Shown: piece by piece, positions 7,868-33,309 of the stretch
How positions within the stretch are numbered: position 1 is the stretch's first letter
Layout: each line of letters opens with the position of its first letter
DNA from: an uncultured Clostridia bacterium
Lineage (GTDB): Bacteria > Bacillota > DTU014
Direction: 5' to 3'
Length of the DNA stretch: 49,567 nt
Assembly: GCA_900016865.1 (NCBI GenBank)
Contig: FIZI01000003.1
Coordinates: 235 to 49,801, forward strand
The notes under the pieces: generated by a model
What the model was told of the DNA's origin: nothing
Databases searched by the model: none
What the model saw: the letters and a program-made list of their open reading frames with translations, nothing else
Made by a program: the position numbers and the translations under genes

Positions 7868-7877
7868 GGTGGTAGTT

Positions 7878-8822: not shown

Positions 8823-8842
8823 TGAGTGCGGAGGTGCTGCTT

Positions 8843-9963: not shown

Positions 9964-11322
9964 ATGCGAAATAGGCTAGTTGCAGTCTTCGTAGCAGTTG
10001 CAGTTCTGCTTTTCTGTTGTTTGGCTGCTCAGGCCAGTGAGTATGACTTCGGCGGAAGAACTGTACGGATTGTGACGCACGAGCAGACCAAGGAAGGCTT
10101 GTGGGGAACGCCGTTTGCCCAGGCTCACTTCGAAGCGATTGAGAAGAAGTTCAACGCCAAGATAGAGATAGTAGCAATGCACTATGACAATAATAAGCAG
10201 ATAATAAACGATCTTCAGCAGGGTCTATTGGCAGGCACTGCCGACGGCATTTACTACGTCAAGGTGGGCGATGCGTACCAATACGCGAACGAGGGATTCT
10301 TCTTCCCACTCACAGAGATCGATATCGAGCCATGCCTTTTTGATGAAATCGTCGGTCTCGATGTGCTGAGCTTCAAGGGCGAGAGGTACTTCTTTTGCCC
10401 GACAGCCGGGAATGTCACACAATTGGCTATTGGTTCATTCGCTCAGCAACCGGACATCGAAGGCATAGTCTGGAACAAGACCAAGTTCGAACAGATGGGT
10501 CTTCCGAATCTATATGAGTTGGTGGAGAGTGGCGAGTGGACCTGGGAGAAGTTTAAGGAGATAGCGATCGCGGCGACGAGAGACCTTGACGGCGACGGAG
10601 TTACCGATATTTGGGGATACTCGCCTTACGCCTATCCTTGGGGATTCCCTGAGGTTCAGAACTGGCTCGTGAGCAACGGTGCTGACGTTACTACAGTAGA
10701 TGAGAACGGACGAGTGGTGTTCGCACTTGACTCCCCAGCCGCACTGGAGGCGCTCAACTTTTATCAGGAGCTTCATCAATTGGGAGTAGCCTATACTGAT
10801 TTGCCTGGATATCAAGCTATGGAGAATGACCTTGTCGTTATGGCGATCTGCAGGCCGTGGACATTCTTCATAATCAAGAACCACGAGGACGATCTCGGAT
10901 ATGTTCCGCTTCCCAAGGGCCCGAGGATGGATAGCTATGTGGCTCCGATAGTTGCCAGCGGGCTGTATGCTATGGCGATTCCTGCCACCACTAAGGAAAA
11001 CCCTGCTGCACTCGTGGCACTGGCCAAGGAGCTGCACTACGATAGCCCACAGTACCTCGACTTTGATAGAATAGCCGAGTTGTACGAGGAATCCTGGAGC
11101 ATGACCGTTAGGGACTATGAGTCGCTTCAGTACATGATCCAAAGCATACTCGATACTCAGGTTGTTAAGTATGACAGCGGAACCTTCCTTGGCACGAACT
11201 TCTTCAACACCTGGAACGAGTACAATCAGAAGATTTTGAGCGGCGAGAGTCCGGCTAGTGTTATAGCTTCATTTAAGGACGCAGCACAGGCGCAGTTAGA
11301 CTCTATATTACTTCTTCAGTAA
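9964..11322 (+). CDS. Extracellular solute-binding protein
   Basis: This exported SBP has 452 residues. The ATG follows GGAGGG by 6 bases. The signal peptide ends near AQA with no convincing lipobox. It is paralogous to the SBP at 3193: GGRTVRI opens the mature chain and DLDGDGVTDIWG occupies the same place (near residue 207). The next genes are a GH16 enzyme, a LacI regulator and a GH43 enzyme, not permeases. It may therefore work with the permease pair at 24554-26446, whose paralogues at 1146-3018 are paired with the related SBP; that pairing is inference. A strong hairpin follows the stop. Confidence 0.9.
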   Translation: MRNRLVAVFVAVAVLLFCCLAAQASEYDFGGRTVRIVTHEQTKEGLWGTPFAQAHFEAIEKKFNAKIEIVAMHYDNNKQIINDLQQGLLAGTADGIYYVKVGDAYQYANEGFFFPLTEIDIEPCLFDEIVGLDVLSFKGERYFFCPTAGNVTQLAIGSFAQQPDIEGIVWNKTKFEQMGLPNLYELVESGEWTWEKFKEIAIAATRDLDGDGVTDIWGYSPYAYPWGFPEVQNWLVSNGADVTTVDENGRVVFALDSPAALEALNFYQELHQLGVAYTDLPGYQAMENDLVVMAICRPWTFFIIKNHEDDLGYVPLPKGPRMDSYVAPIVASGLYAMAIPATTKENPAALVALAKELHYDSPQYLDFDRIAELYEESWSMTVRDYESLQYMIQSILDTQVVKYDSGTFLGTNFFNTWNEYNQKILSGESPASVIASFKDAAQAQLDSILLLQ

Positions 11323-11337
11323 TAGGTATCGGCTTGA

Positions 11338-11366
11338 CCAGAGTGCCGAGCACCTCGGCACTCTGG
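11338..11366 (+). terminator. Strong hairpin after SBP gene
   Basis: A perfect 13-bp stem (CCAGAGTGCCGAG with its complement) encloses a 3-base loop, 15 bases after the SBP stop and just before the ribosome site of the GH16 gene. No U-run follows. It probably limits read-through into the enzyme genes or protects the SBP message. Confidence 0.65.
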
Positions 11367-11386
11367 TTCCAGAGAGGTGGAGGCCT

Positions 11387-12232
11387 ATGGGCAAGCGACC
11401 TTTGGCTATCGGTATGTTGCTTCTCGCAATGGCCTTTCTGTCTGTATTAGTATATGCCGAGGAAGTGGCGACTGTGGACAAGCCGCTTGCATTGAGAAAC
11501 GAAGCTGGTTGGGAAGTAGTCTTTTTTGACGACTTCGAAGGCGATACTCTGGACCTTACCAAGTGGAGCTGTGGCTATCCATGGGGAGCCACTCACAACC
11601 ACAGAGCGTATATGTCTCCTGACAACGTACTTGTTGAGGATGGCCTCTTGAGAATCAAGGCTGAGAACAAGCGGCATCCTGATGCGCCAAAGACGATCGT
11701 CCATGGAGGAGAGACTTTTAGCCTTGATTACACCTCGGGTGTGGTGACAACCAAGGACAAGTTTGAGTTTACCTATGGTTATGTAGAAGCCCGTATAAAG
11801 GTGCCGAAAACAAAGGGCTTCTGGCCTGCTTTTTGGACACTAAACAGCGATGGATCTTGGCCGCCTGAGATCGACATTATGGAAATATTGACTAAGGAAC
11901 CTGACGTGTTGCACACTAATTACCACTACGGTGAGTCGTGGGCCAACAAGGGTTCGTTCTACCAGAAGACAAGGCTGCGAGACTTCTCAGAGGATTTTCA
12001 TACATTCGCTGTTAAGTGGACCGCATCAGAGATGGCCTGGTACGTAAACGGGATCATGATCGGACAGAAATACTACGATCGCCGTTGGATCGCGCAATCC
12101 AAGGACAACTACATCTTGATCAATTTGGCGGTTGGTGGCTGGGGCGGAGATCCCGACGATACGACTGAGTGGCCGGCTTATTATGAGATAGACTGGGTTC
12201 GTGTGTGGCAGAGAAACGTGAATGACAACTAG
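11387..12232 (+). CDS. Secreted GH16 family glycoside hydrolase (beta-glucanase/galactanase type)
   Basis: This 281-residue exported enzyme has the ATG at 11387, GAGGTGG upstream, and a signal peptide ending near residue 24. The catalytic motif EIDIMEIL sits at residues 161-168, with E161 as probable nucleophile, D163 and E166 as acid/base; the ExDxxE layout is diagnostic of GH16. Flanking blocks GYVEARIKVP, GFWPAFWTL, DFHTFAVKW and NLAVGGWGG are family hallmarks. It cleaves an extracellular beta-glycan, most likely beta-1,3-glucan; agar-type or galactan substrates cannot be excluded. It lies between an SBP and a LacI gene, so its products probably feed the importer. Confidence 0.92.
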   Translation: MGKRPLAIGMLLLAMAFLSVLVYAEEVATVDKPLALRNEAGWEVVFFDDFEGDTLDLTKWSCGYPWGATHNHRAYMSPDNVLVEDGLLRIKAENKRHPDAPKTIVHGGETFSLDYTSGVVTTKDKFEFTYGYVEARIKVPKTKGFWPAFWTLNSDGSWPPEIDIMEILTKEPDVLHTNYHYGESWANKGSFYQKTRLRDFSEDFHTFAVKWTASEMAWYVNGIMIGQKYYDRRWIAQSKDNYILINLAVGGWGGDPDDTTEWPAYYEIDWVRVWQRNVNDN

Positions 12233-12260
12233 AATCACAACATAGATAGAGGTGAATCGA

Positions 12261-13304
12261 TTGGCTACTTTACGGGAAATAGCGCAGGAGGCAGGCGTTT
12301 CAGTTTCTACTGTATCGCGAGTTGTAAACGGGTATGAGCACGTATCAGATGAGGTGCGGTTGAGGGTAGAGCGCGCAATCAAGAAGCTCAACTACCAGCC
12401 AAACCAGCTTGCGAGAGCTCTCGTGAGTGGTAGAAACACCAAGCAATTGGGCCTCCTGGTATACGATGTTGCAAATCCTTACTTCGCGGAAATCGCAACC
12501 GCTGTGGAGAATGTTGCGTATCAGAATGGATACTCCGTCATTCTCTGCAACTCGTCAGGGGGACGCAACACGGCGGTGAATCTTCAAACGCTGATCCGTC
12601 ATCAAGTCGACGGGGTAGCGATAACCAGCGGTGAGATAGAAGCCGAAGAGGTCAAGTATCTGGAACGGCTGCTTGATAGGGGGATACCAGTCGTGGTCAC
12701 CCGCGAACGTTTTTGGGTTTCGAACCCGGCTATAGACCATCTAAGCAATAGGATCGGGACGATTGAACTGGATTATTATACAGGTGCGAGGATGGCTACG
12801 GAATACTTGGTTTCGCTGGGCCACGAACGCATAGCGTTCTTGTTCAGTCTTCCTAAGTCCAACCTGGAGATGGATCCGCGAGTTCTAGGCTACAGGGAGG
12901 TACTGGCAGAACACAATCTGCCTTTTTGTGAGGATCTCGTCGTTTGCAACCTGGGTTTCAGGCAGTCCTCCGGAGCTCGAGGCATGCTGGAGCTGCTGTC
13001 GCGAACTCGGGATTTCACTGCAGTCATAGCGTACAACGATCTGCTCGCCATCAGCGCACTTGCAGTTTGCAGGGATGAGGGCATAAGGGTTCCTGAAGAC
13101 GTGTCAGTGATGGGTTTCGACAACATAGCTGCAAGTCAGTACACTTACCCCGCATTGACCACGGTGCATGTCCCAAAGAGTGAGCAAGGCGAGTTTATGG
13201 CGAGATACCTGATATCATACATTAGAGAAGAGTGCCAGCCGGTCCTGAGGAGATTCCCCAGCGAACTGGTGGTCCGTCATAGTACGGCAGCACGGAGAGC
13301 GTAG
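12261..13304 (+). CDS. LacI family transcriptional regulator (first copy)
   Basis: This protein of 347 residues has an N-terminal helix-turn-helix, ATLREIAQEAGVSVSTVSRV, and a periplasmic-binding-protein-like sugar-sensing domain (blocks QLGLLVYDVANPYFAEI and SVMGFDNIAASQYTYPALTT). The TTG at 12261 is chosen because AGAGGTG ends 6 bases before it and LacI proteins usually start just before the first helix; the in-frame GTG at 12252 belongs to the ribosome site. It is co-directional with the GH16 and GH43 genes and probably controls this locus in response to an imported sugar. Its recognition helix resembles CcpA, fitting the cre-like site at 9565. Confidence 0.93.
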   Translation: MATLREIAQEAGVSVSTVSRVVNGYEHVSDEVRLRVERAIKKLNYQPNQLARALVSGRNTKQLGLLVYDVANPYFAEIATAVENVAYQNGYSVILCNSSGGRNTAVNLQTLIRHQVDGVAITSGEIEAEEVKYLERLLDRGIPVVVTRERFWVSNPAIDHLSNRIGTIELDYYTGARMATEYLVSLGHERIAFLFSLPKSNLEMDPRVLGYREVLAEHNLPFCEDLVVCNLGFRQSSGARGMLELLSRTRDFTAVIAYNDLLAISALAVCRDEGIRVPEDVSVMGFDNIAASQYTYPALTTVHVPKSEQGEFMARYLISYIREECQPVLRRFPSELVVRHSTAARRA

Positions 13305-13313
13305 GTGGTAGTG

Positions 13314-14675
13314 ATGCCCGTCAACAGAGTCCTGAACGGGACCATATGGAAAGATACTGACGGCAATCCCATACATGCCCATGGAGGCGGTTTTCTCAAG
13401 AAGGACGGCTATTTCTACTGGTTTGGTGAGAATCGGACTGAAGGTAAACTGGTTTCGTGCTACCGTTCCAAAGACTTGGTGTCATGGGAGTTCTGCAATC
13501 ACGTCGTCACTAGGAATACTCATCCTGAATTGAGCCGGGCGAACGCTGAGAGGCCGAAGGTCACCTACAACGAAAAGACGGGCAGGTATGTCATGTGGCT
13601 ACACTGGGAAAACGGTATCGACTACAGCGAAGCCCGCTGTGCAGTGCTGGTATGTGACACGGTGGACGGGGATTACTCGTACCTGAGGAGCTTCCGGCCA
13701 AAAGGGCACATGTCTCGAGATTGCACTCTGTTCAAGGATGACGATGGCACGGCTTACTTCGTGTCTGCTGCTCGTGAGAACGCAGACCTTCATGTCTATA
13801 GGTTGTCAGATGACTATCTGGACATAGCAAGCCTGGAGAAGGTATTGTGGCCCGGACAGAAACGCGAGGCCCCTGCGATTGTCAAACGCGGCGACTACTA
13901 CTTCCTCATCACTTCAGGCTGCACTGGTTGGGAGCCAAACCAGGGCAAGTACGCGTACTCAGCGAGTATTACGGGTGAATGGTCAGACTTGTTTGACATC
14001 GGATCTCCTACTACCTTCGATACCCAGCCGACTTATATCCTTACGATACAGGGTTCGGAAACCACTTCTTATATCTACGTCGGAGATCGCTGGGATCCAA
14101 GCAACTACTTCAACTCTTCGTATGTCTTTCTTCCTCTGAGCTTCGACACAGAAACATCTATGAGTTTGGACTGGGCCAGCTCGATCACAATCGACGTTCA
14201 GACTGGACTGATGGAGGCCGAGAGCGAGAAGAGCGGATTGTGGCGTCTTCGCATGGGCTTGCGGTACCTGTCCGCCAAAGGCGTCGAGTCTGCAGGCGCA
14301 ACCTACGTTTATGGTGCCAGGCTCTCCTGCGCAGACCAGGATCAGTTGTGGGTCGTAGAACGAGTGTCAGGCGATATAATCCGCATTCGCCACCACGTGA
14401 GCGGCAAGTACATCGAGCCGGAGGACAGCAGCAGTCAGGAGGGCACCAGGATCATTCTGTCCGGCAAGCTGGATCACGCGAGACAGGAATGGAGAGTGAT
14501 ACCTGCAGCAGAGGGTCATGTGAAGCTGCAGAACGTCCATACTGGACTTGCCCTGAAGCTGGAGCGGGCGCGAGAGAGAGGTCAGGCAGATTTGCTAATA
14601 CAAGCTCCGTTGAGCAGTAGTCCGGGCGGTCCGTGGGATGTTAACTCCGTCTTGTTGGCAGAAGTCTATCGATAG
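13314..14675 (+). CDS. GH43 family enzyme with C-terminal ricin-type domain (exo-beta-1,3-galactanase-like)
   Basis: This protein has 453 residues and no signal peptide, so it is probably cytoplasmic. The five-bladed propeller region (1 to about 310) carries GNPIHAHGGGF, YYWFGE-like YFYWFGENR, NAERPKVTYN and REAPAIVKRGDYYFLITSG. These are characteristic of the GH43 branch that includes exo-beta-1,3-galactanases; the E of REAP is the likely acid. A ricin-like beta-trefoil follows (about 315-450), with QEWRV and KLQNVHTGLAL. The ATG at 13314 lies 5 bases after AGGTGG. Together with the secreted GH16 it suggests stepwise breakdown of a beta-1,3-linked glycan. Subfamily assignment is by motif memory. 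Confidence 0.82.
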   Translation: MPVNRVLNGTIWKDTDGNPIHAHGGGFLKKDGYFYWFGENRTEGKLVSCYRSKDLVSWEFCNHVVTRNTHPELSRANAERPKVTYNEKTGRYVMWLHWENGIDYSEARCAVLVCDTVDGDYSYLRSFRPKGHMSRDCTLFKDDDGTAYFVSAARENADLHVYRLSDDYLDIASLEKVLWPGQKREAPAIVKRGDYYFLITSGCTGWEPNQGKYAYSASITGEWSDLFDIGSPTTFDTQPTYILTIQGSETTSYIYVGDRWDPSNYFNSSYVFLPLSFDTETSMSLDWASSITIDVQTGLMEAESEKSGLWRLRMGLRYLSAKGVESAGATYVYGARLSCADQDQLWVVERVSGDIIRIRHHVSGKYIEPEDSSSQEGTRIILSGKLDHARQEWRVIPAAEGHVKLQNVHTGLALKLERARERGQADLLIQAPLSSSPGGPWDVNSVLLAEVYR

Positions 14676-14712
14676 ATTTTGATCGATCCCTTAGGCCGAG
14701 AGGTGACTTCAC

Positions 14713-17673
14713 TTGAGGCTCTTCTTTAGGCTGTTCCTTATTGTTGTCTTGGTGTTTCTAGCCTGTGGTGTGACACCTGCCGTAGGCGCTGACGGCCTTC
14801 AGAGCGGAGGCATCGGGTATCATCAGTATATTAGCCGATTTCTAGACTGCGATGAGCCCGATGTCGAGTATGTGATCAACGGCGGAGACTATGTTCGCGG
14901 CGAAAACGTAGAGACTGTGACGGAGTACGCTGGCCGTAAGGGCTCGTTCGCGGTCACTGATGAAATCGGCTTCGTGGAGTGGGAAGTCGAAATCGAGCAG
15001 GCAGGGCTGTACAGTATAGAAGTGCAATATCATCCCTTGCCTGGCAAGAGCATCGCTGCAGAACGAGAGCTTATGATCAACGGTGCTCGACCGTTCGACG
15101 AAGCTGAGTATCTGACATTCTCAAGGGTCTTTGCGGATGCAGGCCCGGTCTTGGTTGATAGGAACGGAAATCAGATCCGACCAAAGCAGGTCGAAGCACC
15201 CAAGTGGCAGACGGTCATGCTGCACGATCCTACAGGTTATGTCGCTCAACCCTTTCAGTTCTACTTCGACGAGGGTACAAACCGAATCCGCCTGATTTCG
15301 CAAGCGGAACCGCTGTTGATCAGCCAGATCAGAATATGCCAGCCGGAACGGCCCAAGAGCTATCAGGAGGTTCGAGAGGAGTATGACTCCCTCGGATACC
15401 GGGCAACCTCCGGGGTATTCGTCAAGGTTCAGGGAGAGGATGCCACAAGTAAATCGGATCCAACTCTGTTCGGAGTGTTTGATCAGGGAGATCCGACGAT
15501 GGAACCGTACCACCCGGTTCAGATCCGCATCAACTCTATCGGAGGCTACCACTGGGCGCAGGCAAACCAGTGGATTACCTGGGATTTTACAGTTCCCGAG
15601 TCAGGCCTCTACAAGATAGCGATCAAAGCCAAGCAGAATCAATTGCGAGGATTCTACGCCAACCGCAGAGTCTTGATTGATGGCAAAGTGCCATTTCGTG
15701 AAGTGGATTCGGTCGCCTTCCCATACTCTACTCACTACCAGATGAAGGTTCTTGGAGACGAAGAAACCGGCGAAGAGTATCTCTTTTACCTTGAGAAGGG
15801 CCAGCATGAGCTCAAGCTGCAGGTCGTAATCGGTGATCTCGTAGACCAAATCCAGAAGGCCAAGGACAATCTGTACAAACTCACCTCGGTCTACAGGCAG
15901 ATCATCATGATTACCTCGAGAAACCCGGACCCTCTCCGCAGCTATCAGCTGGACAAAAAGATACCGACTTTGGTGTCCGACTTGGAGGAGCTGGCAGAGA
16001 GCTTCAGAGACATCGAGGCTCATTTCAGGGAGTATACCGGGCAGCTCGGAGGACACGGCTTAATACTCAATACTATCATCTTCATGCTGGATCGCATGGC
16101 GGACAGACCCGACCGGATACCGGGCCTCTTGGGCGAGTTTAGAGACAATATCGGTTCGCTGGGTGCTTGGATAATCAGCACGGAATCCCAACCGCTTCAG
16201 ATTGATTATATCATCGTAGCTTCGCCCGATGCGGAGTTGCCTCGCGCCACCCCCACTTTTTGGCAGGGAGTAATGCATGAGCTGAGAGCTTATATCGGAT
16301 CGTACACACACGATTACACCGAGATAGGGGACATCATGACAGAAGGAGAGGATTACAAGGAAAAGGACGCGCTCCACGTTTGGATCGGCATGGGGAGAGA
16401 CCAGGCACAATCGCTCAAACGGATGATACAGAACTCGTTTACACCCGCTACCGGCATCCCTGTAAAGCTGCAGCTGGTCAACGATATGGGAGGGCTGCTC
16501 GTGCCCGCAATCCTGGCAGGGACTGCTCCTGATGTGGCTATCGGGGCCGCAAACATGGACCTTGCATTCAGGGGCGCACTGGTTGACCTATCCGAGTTCG
16601 AAGATTTCGAAGAGGTAGCTCAGCGGTTCTACAAGAGTGCCTTCGTACCTTACAGGTTTAGAGATAGTGTCTACGGGTTGCCGGAGACACAAAGCTTCCC
16701 AGTGCTGTTTTACCGCGAAGATGTGCTGAATGATCTGGGCATTTCGATACCTCAGACGTGGGACGACGTCTTGGAGATCATCCCCGTGCTGCAGCGGCAC
16801 CACATGGAGTTTGGCCTTACAGGGCTCAGCGGCGGCTCTATGCCCAACCTAAACACCCTCTTGATGCTCCTTTATCAAAAGGGAGTTGCAGTCTACAAGG
16901 AGGACAGTGTTGCGACGAACCTGGACTCGAGGGCGGTTGCATTCACATTCAAGCAGTTGACCGACTTCTTTACACTGTACAACGTCCCCTTGGAGTACAA
17001 CATTGCAGATCGGTTCCGCTTGGGCGAAATGCCTTTGGTTGTCACAGACTACAGCCTCTACAACACGCTTCAGGTGTTTGCTCCTGAGTTGAGGGGCAAG
17101 TGGGGCTTTACTGTGGTTCCCGGGACCAGACAGCCCGATGGTTCGATCAATAGGTGTGTCCCAGCGTGGTCTACAGGCGCAGTGATCTTGAGCAAGTCGG
17201 ACAAGAAAGAGCAGGCTTGGGAGTTTTTGAAGTGGTGGACTAGCAAGGAAACGCAGGTCGAATTCGGCAGAGAACTGGAGAGCCTGATGGGAAGTGCAGC
17301 ACGTTATGCCAGCGCCAATGTCGCGGCAGTCAAGGAGCTGCCTTGGCGCCCGCATGAGATCAGGACACTGCTCGATCAGTGGGAGTGGGTAGAAGGAATC
17401 CCGCCGGTGCTCGGAGGGTACTATGTGACTCGGCAGTTTGACTGGCTGTTCAGAGCTGTAGTGCTTGATCACGAACTGCTGTGGGAGTCTATACAGGACT
17501 ACGACGAAGCAGCCAACAAAGAGATAGAGAGAAAACGCAGAGAGTTCGGGTACGAGACAGACTTGGATGATATAGACGAGACATGGAAGCAGTTGTACTG
17601 GGATCAGTACACGCACGTTTACAGGTTGGAGTTGAGTGACGAAGAGCTACGCTTCTATGGATTGATTCCGTAG
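14713..17673 (+). CDS. Very large solute-binding protein with N-terminal carbohydrate-binding-like domains
   Basis: At 986 residues it is about twice the usual SBP length. It starts at a TTG, 6 bases after GAGAGGTGA. A signal peptide (1 to about 26) is followed by two beta-rich, jelly-roll-like segments (about 40-210 and 235-375). The repeated pattern includes VEWEVEIEQAGLYSIEVQY and WDFTVPESGLYKIAIKAK, each with a GARPFDE/GKVPFRE turn. A helical stretch (about 380-480) precedes the SBP domain from about 550 on, with NDMGGLLVPAILAGTAPDVA and GLPETQSFPVLFYR. The N-terminal domains may bind polysaccharide and hand it to the SBP. It is directly upstream of a permease pair. Confidence 0.88.
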   Translation: MRLFFRLFLIVVLVFLACGVTPAVGADGLQSGGIGYHQYISRFLDCDEPDVEYVINGGDYVRGENVETVTEYAGRKGSFAVTDEIGFVEWEVEIEQAGLYSIEVQYHPLPGKSIAAERELMINGARPFDEAEYLTFSRVFADAGPVLVDRNGNQIRPKQVEAPKWQTVMLHDPTGYVAQPFQFYFDEGTNRIRLISQAEPLLISQIRICQPERPKSYQEVREEYDSLGYRATSGVFVKVQGEDATSKSDPTLFGVFDQGDPTMEPYHPVQIRINSIGGYHWAQANQWITWDFTVPESGLYKIAIKAKQNQLRGFYANRRVLIDGKVPFREVDSVAFPYSTHYQMKVLGDEETGEEYLFYLEKGQHELKLQVVIGDLVDQIQKAKDNLYKLTSVYRQIIMITSRNPDPLRSYQLDKKIPTLVSDLEELAESFRDIEAHFREYTGQLGGHGLILNTIIFMLDRMADRPDRIPGLLGEFRDNIGSLGAWIISTESQPLQIDYIIVASPDAELPRATPTFWQGVMHELRAYIGSYTHDYTEIGDIMTEGEDYKEKDALHVWIGMGRDQAQSLKRMIQNSFTPATGIPVKLQLVNDMGGLLVPAILAGTAPDVAIGAANMDLAFRGALVDLSEFEDFEEVAQRFYKSAFVPYRFRDSVYGLPETQSFPVLFYREDVLNDLGISIPQTWDDVLEIIPVLQRHHMEFGLTGLSGGSMPNLNTLLMLLYQKGVAVYKEDSVATNLDSRAVAFTFKQLTDFFTLYNVPLEYNIADRFRLGEMPLVVTDYSLYNTLQVFAPELRGKWGFTVVPGTRQPDGSINRCVPAWSTGAVILSKSDKKEQAWEFLKWWTSKETQVEFGRELESLMGSAARYASANVAAVKELPWRPHEIRTLLDQWEWVEGIPPVLGGYYVTRQFDWLFRAVVLDHELLWESIQDYDEAANKEIERKRREFGYETDLDDIDETWKQLYWDQYTHVYRLELSDEELRFYGLIP

Positions 17674-17707
17674 ATCAATGCCATCCCAGTTCGAAGGAGG
17701 CAAAGCC

Positions 17708-18655
17708 GTGAGAGCAGAAGCGATCATGACTCGCGACAAGCCCGGGTTTTGGCAAAGGGTAGCAAATCGATTTGCAGCGGAGTGGAGAAGGTCCAAGACC
17801 TCCTATGCATTCATCGCTCCGTTCATGATTCTATTCACTGTCTTCTCCGTTGTCCCTGTGCTCGTATCGATAGCTTTGAGTTTTACGTATTTCAACACAC
17901 TTCAGCCGCCGCAGTGGGTTGGGATCGACAACTATATTAGGCTGTTCCTTGATGACGATATCTTTCTCATCGCGGTCAAGAACACGTTCATTTTTGCTGC
18001 TGTGACAGGTCCGCTGAGCTACTTCCTTTGCTTCATAATGGCGTGGTTGATCAATGAACTGCAACCAAAGGTGAGAGCTGTTCTTACTCTGCTGCTCTAT
18101 GCGCCATCAATCTCTGGCAATGCCTACATGATTTGGCTGTACATGTTTAGCGGCGACATGTATGGTTACCTCAACGGGCTTCTGCTCAACTGGGGCATAA
18201 TCGACAAGCCGATTCAATGGTTGATCGACCCTGAGTATATGATGCCCATAGTCATTATCGTGACGCTGTGGATGAGCCTTGGGACCAGTTTCCTCGCGTT
18301 TATCGCAGGCCTGCAAGGGATGGACCACACTCTGTTTGAGGCCGGAGCCATAGACGGAGTGAAAAATCGCTGGCAGGAGCTTTGGTACATCACTCTGCCG
18401 AGTATGAGAGAGTACCTGATGTTTGGAGCCATTGTGACGATCACGAACTCATTTGCTGCCGCCGGGCAGATCACGGCTCTTGTCGGATACCCCAGCACGG
18501 ACTATGCAGTCCATACTGTCATGCAGCATCTCCAGGACTATGGCGGCATTCGATACGAAATGGGGTACGCGTCGACTATTGCAGTAGTGCTGTTTTTCTC
18601 AATGGTAGGTGCGCAGCAAATCGTGCAAAAGCTCTTGGCCAAACTGGGTAACTAG
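17708..18655 (+). CDS. CUT1 sugar ABC transporter permease (MalF type)
   Basis: This membrane protein has 315 residues with six predicted segments. The GTG at 17708 has AAGGAGG exactly 7 bases upstream; the ATG at 17678 lies before that site and is rejected. The EAA loop appears as LFEAGAIDGVKNRWQELWYI near residue 220, where the second alanine of EAA is replaced by glycine. It belongs with the preceding 986-residue SBP (34 bases upstream) and the next permease. The N-terminal 30 residues are polar and cytoplasmic. Confidence 0.92.
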   Translation: MRAEAIMTRDKPGFWQRVANRFAAEWRRSKTSYAFIAPFMILFTVFSVVPVLVSIALSFTYFNTLQPPQWVGIDNYIRLFLDDDIFLIAVKNTFIFAAVTGPLSYFLCFIMAWLINELQPKVRAVLTLLLYAPSISGNAYMIWLYMFSGDMYGYLNGLLLNWGIIDKPIQWLIDPEYMMPIVIIVTLWMSLGTSFLAFIAGLQGMDHTLFEAGAIDGVKNRWQELWYITLPSMREYLMFGAIVTITNSFAAAGQITALVGYPSTDYAVHTVMQHLQDYGGIRYEMGYASTIAVVLFFSMVGAQQIVQKLLAKLGN

Positions 18656-18679
18656 AGCTTTGAGTAGGGGGGCTGTGGA

Positions 18680-19540
18680 GTGAAGCAGACGCTCTATAAG
18701 AAGCGGATAAACCGAAGCCTCGTCGGTGACCTGGGCATCTTTGTGTTCTTGGGTGCCGGTGCAGCATTTACTGCTCTGCCTCTGGTATTCGCTGTCAGCA
18801 ACGCGTTCAAGCCGCTCAATGAGTTGTTTTTGTTCCCGCCGCAGTTTTTTGTGAGGAACCCTACTCTGCAGAACTTCGCAGACTTGTTTACGCTCATGGG
18901 GCAGTCGTGGATCCCAATGACGCGCTACATCTCAAACTCGCTCCTGATCATCATCTTGGGGATGGCCGGGAACTTGTTCTTTGGATCTCTTGCTGCCTAT
19001 GCCTTGTCAAAGCACGATTTTTTCGGCAAACAGACGATCAACGCCCTGATCGTCTTGTCGCTGATGTTTGCACCTGCAGTCCTTAGAATACCGAACTACC
19101 TGACAATCGCGTTCCTAGGTTGGATCGATACATACTGGGCGGTTATTGTTCCCGCTTGGTCCAGCACGCTCGGCTTGTATCTTTTGAGGAATTTCATGAA
19201 CGCCATGGTGCCGATTGACCTACTGGAATCTGCTCGGCTCGATGGTGCGAGCGAATTCTGCATTTACTGGAACATAGTAATGCCGATCGTCAAGCCTGCC
19301 TGGCTGACTTTGATAATCCTGACATTTCAGCAGCTCTGGGGACTTACGGGCGGGGAGTACATCTACTCTGAGTCCCTCAAACCCCTCCCCTATGCTCTCG
19401 ATCAGATCGTCAAAGGTGGAGTTGCTCGCCAAGGAGTTGGTTCAGCAGCTGCGTTGATAATGATGATAGTGCCAATCATTGTGTTCATTATCAATCAGAG
19501 CAAGATCGTAGAGACGATGAGCACTTCGGGGATCAAGTAG
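18680..19540 (+). CDS. CUT1 sugar ABC transporter permease (MalG type)
   Basis: This membrane protein has 286 residues. The GTG at 18680 follows AGGGGGG by 7 bases. The EAA loop, LLESARLDGASEFCIYWNIV, lies near residue 175 and departs from the usual EAA (ESA). Segments FGSLAAYALSKHDFFGKQ and the C-terminal KIVETMSTSGIK are typical of this subunit. It completes the importer served by the large SBP, and ends 10 bases before the NHL/Yip1 gene. Confidence 0.92.
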   Translation: MKQTLYKKRINRSLVGDLGIFVFLGAGAAFTALPLVFAVSNAFKPLNELFLFPPQFFVRNPTLQNFADLFTLMGQSWIPMTRYISNSLLIIILGMAGNLFFGSLAAYALSKHDFFGKQTINALIVLSLMFAPAVLRIPNYLTIAFLGWIDTYWAVIVPAWSSTLGLYLLRNFMNAMVPIDLLESARLDGASEFCIYWNIVMPIVKPAWLTLIILTFQQLWGLTGGEYIYSESLKPLPYALDQIVKGGVARQGVGSAAALIMMIVPIIVFIINQSKIVETMSTSGIK

Positions 19541-19550
19541 GAGGGGACTG

Positions 19551-21662
19551 ATGTCTGTGAGAAGATGCACCGCTACAGCAATGGCGAGAATGGTTGGCGT
19601 TCGTGTATCTGTCTCTGTGGCGCTCTTGATTGTGCTGTTTGTGCAGCCTGCATCTGCTAGCGATCAGCCATATCAGAGCTACATCTTTGATCAGTGGGGC
19701 AACCCGGTCCCGACTCCTGCTCCCTATGTACCTGTTGATGTAATCAGGGGTGAGGAACTGGGCGCAGGTAAGTTCAACGGCCCGCAGGACTTGTTTATCG
19801 CTGATGATGGCTCGATATACATAGCTGATTCGAAGAACAACCGGATTGTGCATATCTCCAAGGACTTGTCCCTGCTTCGAGAGATAACCGGATTTGAATC
19901 AGAGGATGGGCCGCAGAGACTTACGAACCCCGCCTGCATCTTTGTTGACAGCGACGGATCAATGTTCATTGGAGATATGGGCAACCAACGAGTTGTCAAA
20001 CTGGATCACGAGGAGAATCTGAAGCAGATTATCACCTACACAAAACCGGAAGGAATAGATGTACAGATCGTTGAGTTTCTCCCTGCTCGAATCGTAGTCG
20101 ACCCGGTTGGCAGAATCTTCGTCGCAGCTCGCAACGTCTTTGAAGGTTTGATGGAGTTCAACAGCGACGGTGAATTCGTAGGGTTCGTAGGCGCTCCGTT
20201 GGTTCGGCCGAGTCTCTATGATCTCTTTTGGTACAGGTTTGCCACAAAGGAACAGCGTGAGCGTAGGGCACTGTTCCTGCCTATCGAGTATACAAGCGTC
20301 ACTCTTGATCGCGCCGGGTTTATATACGCTGTAGCCAAGGATGAAGTAAGGCGGCTGAATCCTACAGGGCTGGACGTGCTAAACCGTCAAGGACTCTGGC
20401 CCATAGAAGGAGACGTCAACCTGCCTGCAGGTACAAATGCCTCTTTCTTGACTGACATTACCGTTGATGACTACGGAATTTACCACGTGCTGGATTCTGA
20501 AAGAGGCCGGGTGTTTGCCTATGACGACAGTGGCAATCTCCTCTACACATTTGGCACAGTAGGGCCCTATGCCGGCGCATTTAGCAGGCCGCGAGCGATC
20601 GACGGCGATGGTGAACGTCTGTTTGTGCTTGACGAGCAGAGAGCCGAGATCACAGTATTTGCCCCTACGGAGTATGGGCAACTGATCCACTTGGCAAACA
20701 AGCACTATGTGCTCGGTGACTTCGAGGCATCGACAGAGGTGTGGTACCAAGTTCTCAAGTACAACAACCATCTGCCACTCGCCTACAATGGGCTCGGGAT
20801 GTCGCATCTGCGCCAACGTGATTACTCTACCGCTATGCACTATCTCCGTCTCGGCAATAACAGGACTCAGTATTCAAAGGCGTTTGCCAAGTATCGAAAA
20901 GAGGTAGTAGAGCAGAACTTCCTTTGGATCATGATTGCTGTCGTCTTGCTCGTGGTGGCGATTATAGTCTGGTACAAGCGTCGCAGCATTGAGCCTGAGA
21001 TACGAAAGGTCTACGATGCTTCGTCCGTTCGAGGCTGGCGAAGAATAGCGAGCGGGTTGCAATATGCACTGCATGTGATCGTAAATCCCGTTGACGGATT
21101 TTGGGATCTCAGATACGAGGACAGGGGCAATATGCCGGCAGCCATGATCATATTGCTCTTGGCCAGCCTCAGTTTGGTTTTCATGAAGCAATATACAGGG
21201 TATTTGTTTAACCCGCGTGATGTTAGTCAGATCAACGTATTTGGAGAGGTAGGAACCACTGTTGCTACATTTTTCTTGTGGTGTGCGATTAACTGGGCTT
21301 TGACTACGCTCATGGAGGGCAAGGGGAGCTTCTCTGACATAGTGATGGCTACGGCATACGCTTTGACACCGTTGATATTGATCAACGTACCGATTACAAT
21401 ACTTAGCAATTTCATGACTCTCGAGGAAGGCTCCTACTACTACTTCTTCCGTGGTTTGAGCGTGCTGTGGACCGGCATCTTGATTTTCTTCGCTACGATG
21501 ATCACCCATCACTACACTCCAGGAAAGACCGCAGGGACCTGTGTGCTCAACATTGTTGGAATGGGTGTTGTAGTATTCCTCGGACTGTTGTTCTTTAACA
21601 TGGTGAGCATGCTTACTGAGTACACCGTCACGGTCTACCGCGAAATCGTGTTTAGGCTCTAG
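19551..21662 (+). CDS. NHL-propeller/TPR/Yip1 membrane protein
   Basis: This 703-residue fusion starts at an ATG with AGGAGGGG upstream. A signal peptide (1 to about 37) leads into an NHL-repeat beta-propeller (about 60-370). Blades include FNGPQDLFIADDGSIYIADS and FVDSDGSMFIGDMGNQRVV. A TPR-like pair follows (about 375-445; DFEASTEVWYQVLKYN, LAYNGLGMSHLRQRDY), then a membrane segment near 458-475 and a Yip1-type domain of about five segments (about 515-700). The propeller and TPR should be outside the cytoplasmic membrane. It may be a scaffold for the neighbouring SBP, permeases and DUF5696 protein. Function is not known. A broken second copy lies at 48657. Confidence 0.85.
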   Translation: MSVRRCTATAMARMVGVRVSVSVALLIVLFVQPASASDQPYQSYIFDQWGNPVPTPAPYVPVDVIRGEELGAGKFNGPQDLFIADDGSIYIADSKNNRIVHISKDLSLLREITGFESEDGPQRLTNPACIFVDSDGSMFIGDMGNQRVVKLDHEENLKQIITYTKPEGIDVQIVEFLPARIVVDPVGRIFVAARNVFEGLMEFNSDGEFVGFVGAPLVRPSLYDLFWYRFATKEQRERRALFLPIEYTSVTLDRAGFIYAVAKDEVRRLNPTGLDVLNRQGLWPIEGDVNLPAGTNASFLTDITVDDYGIYHVLDSERGRVFAYDDSGNLLYTFGTVGPYAGAFSRPRAIDGDGERLFVLDEQRAEITVFAPTEYGQLIHLANKHYVLGDFEASTEVWYQVLKYNNHLPLAYNGLGMSHLRQRDYSTAMHYLRLGNNRTQYSKAFAKYRKEVVEQNFLWIMIAVVLLVVAIIVWYKRRSIEPEIRKVYDASSVRGWRRIASGLQYALHVIVNPVDGFWDLRYEDRGNMPAAMIILLLASLSLVFMKQYTGYLFNPRDVSQINVFGEVGTTVATFFLWCAINWALTTLMEGKGSFSDIVMATAYALTPLILINVPITILSNFMTLEEGSYYYFFRGLSVLWTGILIFFATMITHHYTPGKTAGTCVLNIVGMGVVVFLGLLFFNMVSMLTEYTVTVYREIVFRL

Positions 21663-21709
21663 GAGCGGGAGTCAGGCTTGTGTATCCACACGAAAACGGG
21701 GGGACTCAT

Positions 21710-24511
21710 GTGAAGAGACAGGGTGTGGTGCTATCCATAGTGCTATCGCTGACACTGATGTTCACCTCGGTCTGCCGTGCTGACAGTGGTGCCCATGAAG
21801 TACCCGGCAACATGGAGTTGGTTGCGCAGAACGAGTTCCTGTCGCTCTACATAGACCGTGCCACTACTGAGATAGCTGTCTTAGAGCACTCTTCAGGACG
21901 CGTCTGGTATTCCAACCCTCAGGATTGGAATAAGCTTGAGACCCAGGCTCGCGGCACTGCCAAGGAGCAGCTCGGTGCGCAGCTCTTGATCACTTATGAC
22001 AGATCTGACAGGCGCAATCGTGAGATGAACAACTACTCGGACAGTATCATGCACGGGCTGTTTGAAATCAGAGAAATAGAGAACGGAGTGAGGGTAGACT
22101 ACACTCTAGGCAGAAGATGGAAAGATGAGGACTACCTCCCCGTTGTTATTGAGAAGACGAGGCTCGAAGAGAGAATTCTCAGCAGTGTCTCGGAAAAAGA
22201 GGCCAGGGAGTTCACTCAACGCTACCACCTTGTCTACTTGAGGCAGCCAACCGGCATAGCTCCGCTTGAGTTGCAAGGCATGGACATGAAGGCATTGCTC
22301 GGCGGCTATGAGTTTGTCGTAGTGACTGATCAAGCAGAGGCCTTGACTGCTCAGATTTTGGACTTGCGAGCTAAGCTAAATACAGCTACCGAGCCCGAAA
22401 AGGAGGAGCTGACAAGCCAGATTGTACGGCTGGAGAGCCAGCTAAACAGCATCAAGTCCAAGGTTGCATGGGAGATCCTAGAGGTGATCTATAGCAACAG
22501 GGCAGACCTTGAGAGCATGAGCGAAGTGCGGTTTGAACACCTCGAGCACTTGATTGACACACCGACCTACTACATGGGCAGAGTCCCGGTGTTTGCTCGG
22601 ACCAATCTGATCGACGCGGTCAAAACGACTGATTACAGTCCCGATGATGCTAGCGATGACCGGGTTGCGTGCAATCTCGATCCGTTGCAGCCAAACCTCG
22701 AGACCTTCTTTATTCCTATCGAGTACAGGCTGGATAAAGACTCGCTGGTAGTCCGGGTTCCTATGAGCGAGGTCATCTATCCTCTAGAAGTACTGGATAA
22801 TCAGGGCGCTAAACACACGTATCCGCTTCACACCATAGCCCTGCTTCCGTACTTCGGAGCTGCTCATCGAGACAAAAATGGCTACATATTCATGCCCGAC
22901 GGCTCGGGCGCTCTCATACGTTTTGGCAGTCCGAAGTACACTTTGACCTACTTGAGCACTCCAGTGTACGGGAGGGATCTCACAGAGGACAATAGAGCGC
23001 AACAGCTTGTTTTGACCGAGCAGGTTTGTATGCCTGTCTATGGTATGAAGACTGAAGATACTGCGTTTATAGCAATTATCGAAAAAGGAGAGCCGTTGGC
23101 GAGAATCAGCGCAGTCAAGGCAGGGTTTTCGAATTCGTTCAACAGTGTCTGCCCGCAGTTTAACGTGATACCGCGAGCAGATCTGTCTCTTGGGCCGATA
23201 GGTTCGGTAGTCGTGTATCAGAAACGGATCTATCAGGGGGATATCCAGGTTAGGTTTAAGTTCCTTGTGGGTGAAGACGCGGACTACGTCGGTATGGCTC
23301 GGTCATACCAAGAGTACTTGGTAAGCCAAGGTCATTTAAGGAGGCTTGAACCGGATCGGGATTTGCCTTTTTACCTGAGTGTAGTCGGCAGTATTGCGAG
23401 AGATGAGCCGGTGTTGGGAGTGCCTAGAGAGGTCATCCGTTCGCTGACAACATTTGAGCAAGCATCTGAGATTGTGGAGAGGCTGCTGCAGTCAGGTGTG
23501 CGCAACATCAAAGTGAGGTATCAGGGTTGGCTCAAAGGAGGCCCTGAGCACATCTTTCCTGATCGGGTAGAGATAGAGCGCGCAGTGGGGAGCAAGGAAG
23601 GCTTAGTTAACCTTGCAACCATGCTCGAGGGCAACGGAGTTGAGTTTTATCCTGAGGTCAACTTCCTTGCAGTGTTTCGCAACAGTATGTTTGATGGGTT
23701 CAACACCAGGCGTGATGCTGCTCAGTACTTTGACAACAGGCCCAAACGGATCACAGAGTATGACATCGCATTTGGGATTTCTTCGAGTTCCGAGAAGTAC
23801 CTATTGTCCCCGAGGAGCCTGTCTAGAGTAGTCAGCTCGTTCTTTGAGGACTATTCGGAGTATGGCATTGGCGGAATTGGGCTGCAATGCCTAGGGAGCA
23901 TGGTCAACTCAGATTTCCGCAACAAGCCTGAGACAGTAATAGATAGACAGCAGTCGGCTGATATCATTCGAGAGCAGTTGGCGCAGATCAATGCGGCAGG
24001 CTATGACGTCTTGGTCGTGGGCGGAAACGCACTGTCTTACCCATTTGCCAAGAGCATAGTTGGAGCGCCTTTTAGGAGCTCTTATCACGATATATTCGAT
24101 GAGACGGTTCCTTTCTACCAGTTGGTCCTAAGCGGCCATATGGAGTATGCCGGGAGACCGTTGAACATGGTTTCCGACTACCGAAAAACACTGCTGCAGA
24201 GCATCTCTTTTGGGGCCGGGCTTCACTTTGAGTGGGCTTATGGGAACACTGACCTCTTGATCAATACGGATTTCGATCACTTGTACGCGATTAGCTTTGA
24301 GGATTGGTTTGAACAGGCTGTTGCCGACTATCAAAAAGCCAGCGCGATCTTTGCAATGATACGCGATGCACAGATCCTAGATTACATCGAGCTCGGCGAC
24401 GGGGAGTATGTGACGAAATACGATAACGGGTGCAGCATTTCAGTGAACTACAGGCAGGGCACTGTAACTGTTCATCGCGAGTCGAGTGAGTCGGTAGTCT
24501 ACGAGTTCTAG
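21710..24511 (+). CDS. DUF5696 domain protein, full length
   Basis: This exported protein has 933 residues. The GTG at 21710 follows GGGGGG by 5 bases and puts a clean signal peptide first; the GTG at 21680 would add ten polar residues. After the signal, a beta-rich region (about 25-200) is followed by a charged coiled coil (about 215-260) and a second beta region. A segment from about 560 on resembles an alpha/beta barrel, with NIKVRYQGWLKGG, NGVEFYPEVNFL, DRQQSADII and VPFYQLVLSG. The family is uncharacterised; a glycoside-hydrolase-like fold is suspected. It lies between the NHL/Yip1 gene and a permease pair, the same position relative to permeases as the copy at 1-1149. Confidence 0.85.
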   Translation: MKRQGVVLSIVLSLTLMFTSVCRADSGAHEVPGNMELVAQNEFLSLYIDRATTEIAVLEHSSGRVWYSNPQDWNKLETQARGTAKEQLGAQLLITYDRSDRRNREMNNYSDSIMHGLFEIREIENGVRVDYTLGRRWKDEDYLPVVIEKTRLEERILSSVSEKEAREFTQRYHLVYLRQPTGIAPLELQGMDMKALLGGYEFVVVTDQAEALTAQILDLRAKLNTATEPEKEELTSQIVRLESQLNSIKSKVAWEILEVIYSNRADLESMSEVRFEHLEHLIDTPTYYMGRVPVFARTNLIDAVKTTDYSPDDASDDRVACNLDPLQPNLETFFIPIEYRLDKDSLVVRVPMSEVIYPLEVLDNQGAKHTYPLHTIALLPYFGAAHRDKNGYIFMPDGSGALIRFGSPKYTLTYLSTPVYGRDLTEDNRAQQLVLTEQVCMPVYGMKTEDTAFIAIIEKGEPLARISAVKAGFSNSFNSVCPQFNVIPRADLSLGPIGSVVVYQKRIYQGDIQVRFKFLVGEDADYVGMARSYQEYLVSQGHLRRLEPDRDLPFYLSVVGSIARDEPVLGVPREVIRSLTTFEQASEIVERLLQSGVRNIKVRYQGWLKGGPEHIFPDRVEIERAVGSKEGLVNLATMLEGNGVEFYPEVNFLAVFRNSMFDGFNTRRDAAQYFDNRPKRITEYDIAFGISSSSEKYLLSPRSLSRVVSSFFEDYSEYGIGGIGLQCLGSMVNSDFRNKPETVIDRQQSADIIREQLAQINAAGYDVLVVGGNALSYPFAKSIVGAPFRSSYHDIFDETVPFYQLVLSGHMEYAGRPLNMVSDYRKTLLQSISFGAGLHFEWAYGNTDLLINTDFDHLYAISFEDWFEQAVADYQKASAIFAMIRDAQILDYIELGDGEYVTKYDNGCSISVNYRQGTVTVHRESSESVVYEF

Positions 24512-24553
24512 TTTTTGCGTGCGAGGTTCCTTGATGGAGGGAGTGCTAGAGCA

Positions 24554-25441
24554 ATGAAGCTGCCGAAATTGGGGTTGACCACAAAAAAGAGCCTTAAGGG
24601 GTACTTGTATGTGTCTCCGTTTCTCATCGGGTTCTTCGCGTTCTTTCTGATACCGTTGATCCAAACAGTGGTGTTCAGCTTGAGTGAGCTCAAGATAGTG
24701 ACCACAGGGTACACGATAACCCCTGTAGGTTTGGACAACTACAATACTGCGCTTTTTGTGGATCCGGATTTCGTCCCGACGCTGACAAACACTGTGATCA
24801 ACACGCTGATAGACATACCTGCCATACTGATTTTTAGCTTTTTCATTGCTGTTGTCTTGAATCAGAAGTTCCGAGGGAGGACCCTGGCTCGATTGATATT
24901 CTTTCTCCCCGTTATATTGACATCCGGAGTAGTTGCACAGATGGAGATCAACGATGTGATGAACCAGGCCTTGGTACAGGATGCGGAGTTCATGTTGGGC
25001 GGCCAGCATTTTGTCAGCTTTCTGCTTGGGCTAAACCTTCCGCCTGCTTTCGTACAATACATAGTCACTGTGGTAGATCGGATTGGACCTGTGATAGAAG
25101 CGAGTGCAATACCTATACTGATTTTCTTGGCAGGCCTGCAATCAATCCCGCCAGATCTCTATGAAGTCGCCGACGTCGAAGGCATCACCGGCTGGGAGAA
25201 GTTCTGGATGATCACCTTTCCACTCGTAAGTCCTATGATCTTGACCAACGCAATCTTTATCATTATCAACTCGTTTACCTCACCTCGAAACGAGATGGTT
25301 CGTTTCATCGGAGAGAATACCTGGAGCCGAGGAGGTTACGGGGTGAGCGCTGCGATGGCGCTGCTCTACTTCCTGTCTATAGGTGCGATTTTGGCGTTGG
25401 TTGTGTTGGTGACCAGTAGACGAGTTGTGTATCTGGAGTAG
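24554..25441 (+). CDS. CUT1 sugar ABC transporter permease (MalF type)
   Basis: This membrane protein has 295 residues. The ATG at 24554 is preceded by GGAGGGAG at 24536-24543. The blocks DIPAILIFSFFIAVVLNQKF and FFLPVIL are nearly the same as in the permease at 1146, and the EAA loop reads LYEVADVEGITGWEKFWMIT, with valine for the middle residue. It follows DUF5696, as its paralogue does, but no SBP gene follows the pair here. It probably uses an SBP encoded elsewhere, for example 9964. Confidence 0.92.
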   Translation: MKLPKLGLTTKKSLKGYLYVSPFLIGFFAFFLIPLIQTVVFSLSELKIVTTGYTITPVGLDNYNTALFVDPDFVPTLTNTVINTLIDIPAILIFSFFIAVVLNQKFRGRTLARLIFFLPVILTSGVVAQMEINDVMNQALVQDAEFMLGGQHFVSFLLGLNLPPAFVQYIVTVVDRIGPVIEASAIPILIFLAGLQSIPPDLYEVADVEGITGWEKFWMITFPLVSPMILTNAIFIIINSFTSPRNEMVRFIGENTWSRGGYGVSAAMALLYFLSIGAILALVVLVTSRRVVYLE

Positions 25442-25474
25442 AGCATTAGGATTGCGCGAAAGGGAGGCTGTGAA

Positions 25475-26446
25475 ATGTCAGTCGCATACAAGTACCGTGT
25501 CCGCCGGATCGAAAACATCAAGCTGGCAGCGTTCATAACCAAGTGCAGCGGATGGATTTGGACTGTAGTTCGCGCAGTGCTGCTGATAGGCCTCTGTTTC
25601 ATGATACTTTACCCGCTGATCGTCAAGTTCACGTCTTCAATTATGCACGTTGACGATATGTATGATGCCAGTGTGCGATTTGTCCCGCGCCGCACGACGT
25701 TGCAGCAGTATCGAATCGCTTGGGAATGGATGAACTACCCCAGGGTGCTACTGAACACAACTACTCTGACACTGGTTGTAAGTCTCCTGCAGTTGGCCTC
25801 TTGCACTATTGTGGGTTACGGACTCGGGAGGTTCGACTTCAAGGGCCGAAATATCGTGTTTGGCCTTGTCCTGCTGACGCTTGTGGTCCCGCCGGAGATG
25901 GTCATGATCCCACTGTTTCTTAACTTCAGGTTTTTTGACCTCTTTGGCCTTATACCCGAACCCGGAATCAACCTGCTTGGGTCGTACTGGCCGTTTGTCT
26001 TAACCTCGTGTACGTCTATGGGATTGAAAAATGGTCTATTCATCTACATCATGACACACTTCTTCCGCGGCATGCCTCACAGCCTTGAGGAGGCGGCAGA
26101 AATCGACGGAGCTAGCTCATTTCAGACGTTCTACAAGATAATGCTTCCGGGGGCGAAGCCTGCGATGATCATTGTGTTCCTTTTCTCCTTCGTTTGGCAG
26201 TGGAATGATAGGTTTTACACTGATCTGTTCTTGCGAAACAGTGAGAGCTACTTATCCTATGCTTTGCAGACTTTCGCTGCAAGATTTTCCAGCAACAGTC
26301 CAATACGTCGTCAGTTCCCGTATCACTATGGGTCACTTCTCAACAACGCAGGGATGATGATGTTCATGGCCCCGCTTCTCGTCTTGTACTTGTTCATGCA
26401 GAGGCACTTCGTTGAGAGCATTGAAAGGACGGGATTGGTCGGCTGA
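25475..26446 (+). CDS. CUT1 sugar ABC transporter permease (MalG type)
   Basis: This membrane protein has 323 residues; its ATG has GGGAGGC about 8 bases upstream. The EAA loop is SLEEAAEIDGASSFQTFYKI near residue 207. It is paralogous to the permease at 2035: TIVGYGLGRFDF, VPPEMVMIPLFLNFRFF and the ending RHFVESIERTGLVG match closely. It is the last gene of the 14713-26446 run. No terminator with a U-run was seen after it. Confidence 0.92.
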   Translation: MSVAYKYRVRRIENIKLAAFITKCSGWIWTVVRAVLLIGLCFMILYPLIVKFTSSIMHVDDMYDASVRFVPRRTTLQQYRIAWEWMNYPRVLLNTTTLTLVVSLLQLASCTIVGYGLGRFDFKGRNIVFGLVLLTLVVPPEMVMIPLFLNFRFFDLFGLIPEPGINLLGSYWPFVLTSCTSMGLKNGLFIYIMTHFFRGMPHSLEEAAEIDGASSFQTFYKIMLPGAKPAMIIVFLFSFVWQWNDRFYTDLFLRNSESYLSYALQTFAARFSSNSPIRRQFPYHYGSLLNNAGMMMFMAPLLVLYLFMQRHFVESIERTGLVG

Positions 26447-32164: not shown

Positions 32165-32186
32165 AAACAAACTAGGGTTGATTGGT

Positions 32187-33215: not shown

Positions 33216-33255
33216 GTTGATCACACAGTTGCATGGGCTCGTTTGAGGTTCGTTG

Positions 33256-33284
33256 TTGCTTGACCTCTATAACGGGCGTTTAAT
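33256..33284 (+). promoter_or_regulatory. Probable promoter of the SBP-permease operon
   Basis: TTGCTT (33256-33261), a 17-base spacer and TTTAAT (33279-33284) form a fair sigma-A-type promoter. Its expected start point lies near 33291, directly before the operator at 33296, which fits repression by occlusion. The -35 box is weak. Confidence 0.45.
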
Positions 33285-33295
33285 CAACGGTAGAT

Positions 33296-33309
33296 CACAA
33301 ACGTTTGTG
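33296..33309 (+). promoter_or_regulatory. LacI-family operator of the importer operon
   Basis: CACAAACGTTTGTG is a perfect 14-base palindrome with the central CG typical of LacI-family operators. It lies in the leader of the SBP gene and matches the site in front of the adjacent regulator gene at 32151-32164. The leader that follows is about 180 bases long before the SBP start. Confidence 0.75.

Follow-up and report, generated by a model that had tools for sequence, protein, structure and literature searches.

A 49,567-nucleotide stretch of DNA from an uncultured Clostridia bacterium (contig FIZI01000003.1; hereafter the window) carries a gene cassette that is a real and strongly conserved gene set of Bacillota. 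The cassette encodes a giant solute-binding protein (gSBP), two permease pairs of the ATP-binding cassette (ABC) type (pA1/pB1 and pA2/pB2), an NHL-TPR-Yip1 protein and a protein of the DUF5696 family. It appears to serve the uptake of plant-type sugar chains in many Bacillota. The explanation that we consider best, and hold with somewhat more belief than doubt, is that of a glycan-uptake cassette in which NHL-TPR-Yip1 acts as a tether. The genes of the window's copy are listed below with the evidence for each; L076 is an orthologous locus in another metagenome-assembled genome (MAG), GH denotes glycoside hydrolase families, CBM carbohydrate-binding modules and AF2 AlphaFold2.

9964-11322, + strand: solute-binding protein (SBP), probable partner of pA2/pB2 (SBP_bac_8; 76% identity to the SBP that immediately follows pB2 in L076)
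11387-12232, + strand: GH16 endo-glycanase, laminarinase-like (Pfam GH16; the nearest solved structures are beta-1,3-glucanases)
12252-13304, + strand: LacI-family regulator (Pfam LacI and Peripla_BP_3)
13305-14675, + strand: GH43 with a ricin-B/CBM13-type lectin domain, probable exo-beta-1,3-galactanase (Pfam; 3vsf and 7bys; L076 orthologue)
14713-17673, + strand: gSBP, 986 amino acids (Pfam SBP_bac_1/8; AF2 model; Foldseek)
17678-18655, + strand: permease pA1, MalF/UgpA type (BPD_transp_1 type; EAA loop present)
18680-19540, + strand: permease pB1, MalG/UgpE type (BPD_transp_1 type; EAA loop present)
19551-21662, + strand: NHL-TPR-Yip1 protein, 703 amino acids, with an NHL propeller and TPR (predicted outside), a transmembrane segment and a C-terminal Yip1 domain (Pfam, PDB profile search, topology)
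21680-24511, + strand: DUF5696 protein, 943 amino acids from the first GTG, secreted, predicted GH129/ZgGH129-like fold (Pfam E = 2e-178; model)
24515-25441, + strand: permease pA2 (BPD_transp_1 type; EAA-like loop present)
25475-26446, + strand: permease pB2 (BPD_transp_1 type; EAA loop present)

The seven open reading frames (ORFs) from gSBP to pB2 lie where the first-pass annotation of this DNA had placed them (14713-26446), separated by short gaps of 4, 24, 10, 17, 3 and 33 nt. That annotation spoke of six genes in a row and of a DUF5696 protein of 933 residues; both figures are corrected here, and its limits for the unit proved too narrow. The order in L076 is GH43-gSBP-pA1-pB1-NHL-Yip1-DUF5696-pA2-pB2-SBP, and identities to the window's proteins are 64% (GH43), 71% (gSBP), 82% (pA1), 80% (pB1), 66% (NHL-Yip1), 57% (DUF5696), 72% (pA2), 73% (pB2) and 76% (the SBP at 9964-11322). 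Because L076 keeps both the SBP and the GH43 with the cassette, we take the unit in the window to be 9964-26446. Scans for promoters did no better than chance, and those for terminators only slightly better.

Gene order and co-occurrence across Bacillota

We scanned about 85,000 species genomes with a DUF5696 alignment as the query (a single-sequence NHL-Yip1 query matched nothing) and obtained 493 DUF5696 loci that carry the conserved motif. The 80 best of them were all from Bacillota, including Bacillota MAGs, Halanaerobiales, Caldicoprobacter, Mahella, Paenibacillus, Lederbergia, Cohnella and others. The usual order in Paenibacillus was SBP-gSBP-pA1-pB1-NHL-Yip1-DUF5696-pA2-pB2. Since the best-80 set is biased to top matches, an independent sample of 250 evenly drawn Bacillota genomes was also analyzed. 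DUF5696 was present in 19 of these, and NHL-Yip1 was present in the same 19 and in one more (Fisher p ~1e-27, a value that ignores kinship); in the one genome with NHL-Yip1 and no DUF5696, the match is a chimeric ORF that sits at the end of a contig.

The same order was seen in 17 of 17 further loci (16 genomes). Among 117 loci, Yip1 was called upstream of DUF5696 in 109, six-frame reading uncovered NHL and/or Yip1 in 5 more, and the remaining 3 start at a contig edge. Far from being only rarely adjacent, a finding that the first-pass annotation had named as counting against itself, the two families thus co-occur in 19 of 19 DUF5696 genomes, with NHL/Yip1 directly upstream in 114 of 114 assessable loci. 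Median gaps between adjacent cassette genes from gSBP to pB2 were −11 to 15 nt, and orthologous cassettes are intact between genera.

Repeated copies with differing neighbors

The window's genome (2.19 Mb, 59 contigs) contains 11 DUF5696 matches and about as many NHL-Yip1 genes. This gene order recurs in a second genome of the same family (G001), where 22 matches to DUF5696, fragments included, correspond to ~17 or more cassette copies; copy counts are approximate, as several copies are cut by contig ends. On every contig of the window's genome that shows both, NHL(-Yip1) immediately precedes DUF5696, after which come pA2-pB2 and, in most cases, an SBP, and a gSBP-pA1-pB1 submodule precedes several of the copies.

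Most copies adjoin differing glycosidases, and some have no recognizable glycosidase next to them. In the window's genome the neighbors are an apiosidase-like GH140 with WbsX and GH43 (contig C29), GH106 (C4), GH38 (C12), GH2 (C14), GH5 (C33) and GH130 (C44); in other organisms they are GH9, GH26-CBM35(-SLH), GH5-CBM46, GH38, GH36, GH43, GH3 and GH2. LacI-type regulators lie near many copies. The modular glycan-uptake system proposed in the first-pass annotation is well supported by the co-occurrence, the invariant order, two separable submodules and the glycosidases beside most copies. One could still imagine that the cassette works on envelope polysaccharide of the cell itself and not on food glycans, as neither DUF5696 nor gSBP, both large and secreted, has an assigned substrate. 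We give this idea very little credence, given 11 to ~20 copies with differing catabolic glycosidases (GH5, GH9, GH26-SLH, GH36, GH38, GH43, GH106) and LacI regulators, and given the integrity of orthologous cassettes between genera.

Median identities among paralogues in the window's genome were 24% for SBP, 37% for DUF5696, 43% for NHL, 46-48% for pA2/pB2, 49% for gSBP and 60-65% for pA1/pB1. SBP is the most divergent part among paralogues yet is 76-84% identical in two orthologous pairs, which fits SBP as the part most tuned to substrate. The fast divergence of DUF5696 paralogues was likewise considered as a sign of substrate contact, an argument weakened by DUF5696 also being the fastest-changing protein between orthologues. 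Within-genome co-evolution correlations were mixed (weak for DUF5696-NHL, strong for NHL-pA2) and were given no weight as proof.

Transport components and likely substrate

An EAA-type coupling loop was found in all four permeases (consensus of 60-96 homologues each), one of which scores below the BPD_transp_1-type cut-off in Pfam. The cassette has no ATPase gene, and exactly one OB_MalK-domain protein is encoded in the window's genome (C16:49038); this single MalK/MsmX-type ATPase is a candidate to be shared by both permease pairs. One ATPase serving several importers is established for MsmX-type systems. Such sharing has also been proposed for glycan loci of Paenibacillus (PMC6484121).

The cassette SBPs belong to a sugar-binding cluster (SBP_bac_1/8), and their best solved relatives are oligosaccharide SBPs. 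The AF2 model of gSBP (pLDDT, the predicted local distance difference test, 83) has an N-terminal hydrophobic segment, beta-sandwich domains at residues ~50-240 and 273-503, a helical insert at 376-491 and a C-terminal SBP domain at ~550-950. Weak profile similarity (E = 6e-5) links the second sandwich to residues 432-518 of 5x7g, which we take to be a CBM35. For the SBP half, the best Foldseek match was 5yse, a beta-1,2-glucooligosaccharide binder. This C-terminal half resembles Lin1841 (5ysb/5yse), a beta-1,2-glucooligosaccharide-binding protein, in both fold and sequence, but unlike Lin1841, gSBP carries a further ~500 residues that form beta-sandwich and helical domains.

The GH43 and ricin-B protein of the window matched 3vsf (E = 2e-113), presumably the C. 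thermocellum exo-beta-1,3-galactanase (GH43_24 with CBM13), and the galactan 1,3-beta-galactosidase 7bys (E = 2e-55). Judged from the neighboring GH43 and GH16 alone, the cargo of the window's cassette is likely to be galactan, beta-1,3-galactan or type II arabinogalactan fragments.

NHL-TPR-Yip1 as a predicted membrane anchor

Profile searches against PDB sequences confirmed the NHL propeller and the TPR, and Yip1 (PF04893) matched with E = 7e-17 and about five hydrophobic segments; NCBIfam matches to the protein were far below cut-off. The order from the N-terminus is a signal-like segment, propeller, TPR, hydrophobic helix, an excess of positive charge and Yip1, so that the positive-inside rule predicts the propeller and TPR to be outside. 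A single fused gene encodes NHL and Yip1 in 75 cassettes, and separate genes were called in 34. The Yip1 tree requires about nine changes between the fused and split states, some of which are artefacts of truncated ORFs; a fused clade inside Paenibacillus and the split pair common to the window's genome and G001 look real.

In monoderm Bacillales, a simple lipobox rule, which cannot tell uncleaved N-terminal anchors, found a lipobox in 25 of 27 SBPs, 0 of 29 gSBPs and 4 of 28 DUF5696 proteins. With gSBP and DUF5696 mostly devoid of a lipobox, NHL-TPR-Yip1 is the clearest membrane anchor left, the strongest indirect hint that it may keep both at the membrane. The scaffold role that the first-pass annotation had suggested for this protein thus gains only indirect support, from the predicted topology, from the absent lipid anchors on gSBP and DUF5696 in monoderms and from repeated NHL/Yip1 fusion and splitting; we retain it in conditional form.

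The propeller-TPR-membrane architecture would also suit ligand sensing, with the outside propeller and TPR reading ligand-loaded DUF5696 or SBP and signaling through Yip1. We regard this as unlikely. A Pfam scan detected no cytoplasmic kinase or output domain in the NHL-Yip1 protein, which is fixed beside DUF5696 and not beside a regulator, and LacI-type regulators are already near many copies.

A predicted GH129-like fold for DUF5696

The DUF5696 model (pLDDT 90; predicted template modeling score, pTM, 0.86) had as its best Foldseek matches ZgGH129 (5opq, E = 1e-30, TM 0.50/0.69) and NagBb, and the DUF5696 profile also matches both by sequence. From the model we confidently predict a GH129/ZgGH129-like fold. 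By hmmscan the window protein belongs to the DUF5696 family only, and NCBIfam has no family for DUF5696. Pfam Glyco_hydro_129 (PF11308) gave 0 matches in the window's genome and 249 Bacillota genomes, and none in the control genomes either.

DUF5696 shares overall fold and local sequence similarity with GH129 and GH129-like enzymes (NagBb, ZgGH129/DagB). Unlike these enzymes, it has an extra N-terminal region and no evident conserved acid pair at the expected barrel positions, and the Asp of the NagBb LHLDGW motif (probably Asp330) is replaced, aligning with Thr, Ser, Leu or Gln. A longer DUF5696 sequence alignment did not extend across NagBb Asp435. Barrels of this type keep their acids at strand ends (beta4 and beta5); with these ends assigned from the secondary structure of the model and not by superposition, position 737 is acidic in 58 of 104 DUF5696 sequences, position 780 in 38 of 104 and both in 22 of 104. 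We read DUF5696 as a probable binder of glycan fragments and as no more than a possible enzyme.

Of the two NagBb catalytic residues, ZgGH129 keeps only Asp435 (as Asp486), and it also needs Glu517, Glu531 and Asp202 from the partner subunit (Ficko-Blean et al., PMC5698469). We therefore do not firmly call DUF5696 a dead enzyme: ZgGH129 likewise has no equivalent of NagBb Asp330 yet is active (PMC5698469).

A model for the cassette and its alternatives

In the tethered-uptake reading that we favor, the outside exo-beta-1,3-galactanase-like GH43, together with GH16, would trim galactan, probably type II arabinogalactan, and the secreted GH129-like DUF5696 would bind or handle the fragments. SBP would hand fragments to pA2/pB2 and gSBP would serve pA1/pB1, with both pairs borrowing the genome's single MalK/MsmX-type ATPase. 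NHL-TPR-Yip1, with Yip1 in the membrane, would hold DUF5696 and gSBP at the permeases.

Several observations weigh against this reading. The gSBP-pA1-pB1 submodule stands alone by a GH32 gene on contig C8 (locus L042, contig coordinates 59625-66772), which suggests that it can function independently of NHL-Yip1 and DUF5696. In about half of the cassettes, gSBP-pA1-pB1 is missing from the six genes upstream; the parts are therefore not one obligate complex. The hydrophobic segment at the N-terminus of gSBP, and likewise that of DUF5696, could serve as an uncleaved anchor, and a tether would then be unnecessary. Finally, position D745 of DUF5696 is Asp in 93 of 104 sequences, and at two positions of the N-terminal sandwich, D407 and D433, Asp is kept in at least 101 of 104, so that catalysis by DUF5696 is possible.

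These residues, the fold match to active GH129-like enzymes and the precedent of ZgGH129, which is active without one NagBb catalytic residue and takes an essential Asp from the partner subunit (PMC5698469), would fit a scheme in which DUF5696 is a catalytically active extracellular glycosidase from a new family related to GH129, NHL-Yip1 is a minor accessory or assembly factor and the two importers are independent. We find that scheme rather improbable. The strand ends where acids are expected hold no conserved pair, a single DUF5696 activity would need to match cassettes whose glycosidases differ widely, and the invariant NHL-Yip1/DUF5696 pairing speaks against a minor accessory.

Tethered uptake can also be put in a stronger form, in which an NHL-TPR-Yip1 platform would join two ABC importers, gSBP and a catalytically silent, GH129-derived glycan holder into one surface machine, the Bacillota equivalent of Sus-like uptake, in which binding proteins and glycosidases would be exchanged from one copy to the next. 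We advance this form tentatively and rate it well short of probable.

Comparison with known systems

The cassette resembles CUT1-type importers and gram-positive polysaccharide-utilization loci (PULs) with a shared MsmX/MalK ATPase in having an SBP, MalF/MalG-type EAA permeases, an ATPase encoded elsewhere and adjacent glycosidases and LacI. It differs from CUT1-type importers in its two permease pairs, a 986-amino acid SBP with two added beta-sandwich domains, NHL-TPR-Yip1 and DUF5696. Its working, and only that, can be compared with the Sus-like PULs of Bacteroidota, which also combine paralogous loci, each with its own glycosidases, with a conserved surface apparatus and diverged binding proteins. 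In contrast to these, uptake would be by ABC importers, and no SusC/SusD-type protein was among the scanned cassette proteins.

A literature search, which left aside subscription papers and preprints, found no paper naming DUF5696 and nothing relevant on Yip1 or NHL with a transporter; NHL, permease and solute-binding terms are absent from the Paenibacillus JDR-2 transcriptome paper. The importer parts are of a known kind; neither the conserved combination nor the two outside proteins seem to have been described before. About 8% of the sampled Bacillota species carry the cassette, some in more than 10 copies, and no function is assigned to DUF5696. Anaerobic digesters and soil Paenibacillus may thus share a widespread element of glycan uptake that has escaped notice. 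The cassette offers a testable role for the Pfam family DUF5696 and for bacterial proteins with a Yip1 domain, and it provides a new marker by which gram-positive PULs can be found.

Other copies and assembly features

The recurrence within the window noted in the first-pass annotation, of DUF5696 with permeases at 1-3018 and of an NHL 5' end at 48657, is real in both places, with the latter gene broken at ~49052. The features concerned are:

1-1149, + strand: DUF5696 of a second cassette, 3' part, cut near the contig start (Pfam, genome matches)
1146-2045, + strand: pA2 of the second cassette (Pfam, gene order)
2026-3018, + strand: pB2 of the second cassette (Pfam, gene order)
3175-4539, + strand: SBP of the second cassette (Pfam, gene order)
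48657-49106, + strand: third NHL gene, 5' fragment, broken near the contig end (homology matches)

At 48657-49567 the NHL gene ends after ~130 codons and enters an ORF with weak similarity to a GH2 N-terminal domain. This region is close to the contig end (49951) and would be either a pseudogene or a chimeric assembly. A probable chimera was also seen at a contig edge in locus L174 (G243:C103, 7682-8536), where an NHL N-terminus is joined to an electron-transfer flavoprotein alpha-like end.

In the window's genome, contigs C3, C4, C12 and C33 break inside or near DUF5696 genes, and the cassette repeats may have fragmented the assembly. At C5:94001-104000, at least 10,000 N after a DUF5696 start produce a false open frame of 24,576 amino acids. 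The gSBP match at C14:35104-37995 holds two in-frame TGA codons and is possibly damaged or mis-assembled.

An ordinary LacI-SBP-permease-permease locus, without NHL or DUF5696, lies at 32178-36702 of the window. Between two cassettes of the window, at 4591-9253, are genes for an ABC-2 type exporter (ATPase and membrane protein), a 470-amino acid protein without assignment and a DUF1861 protein.

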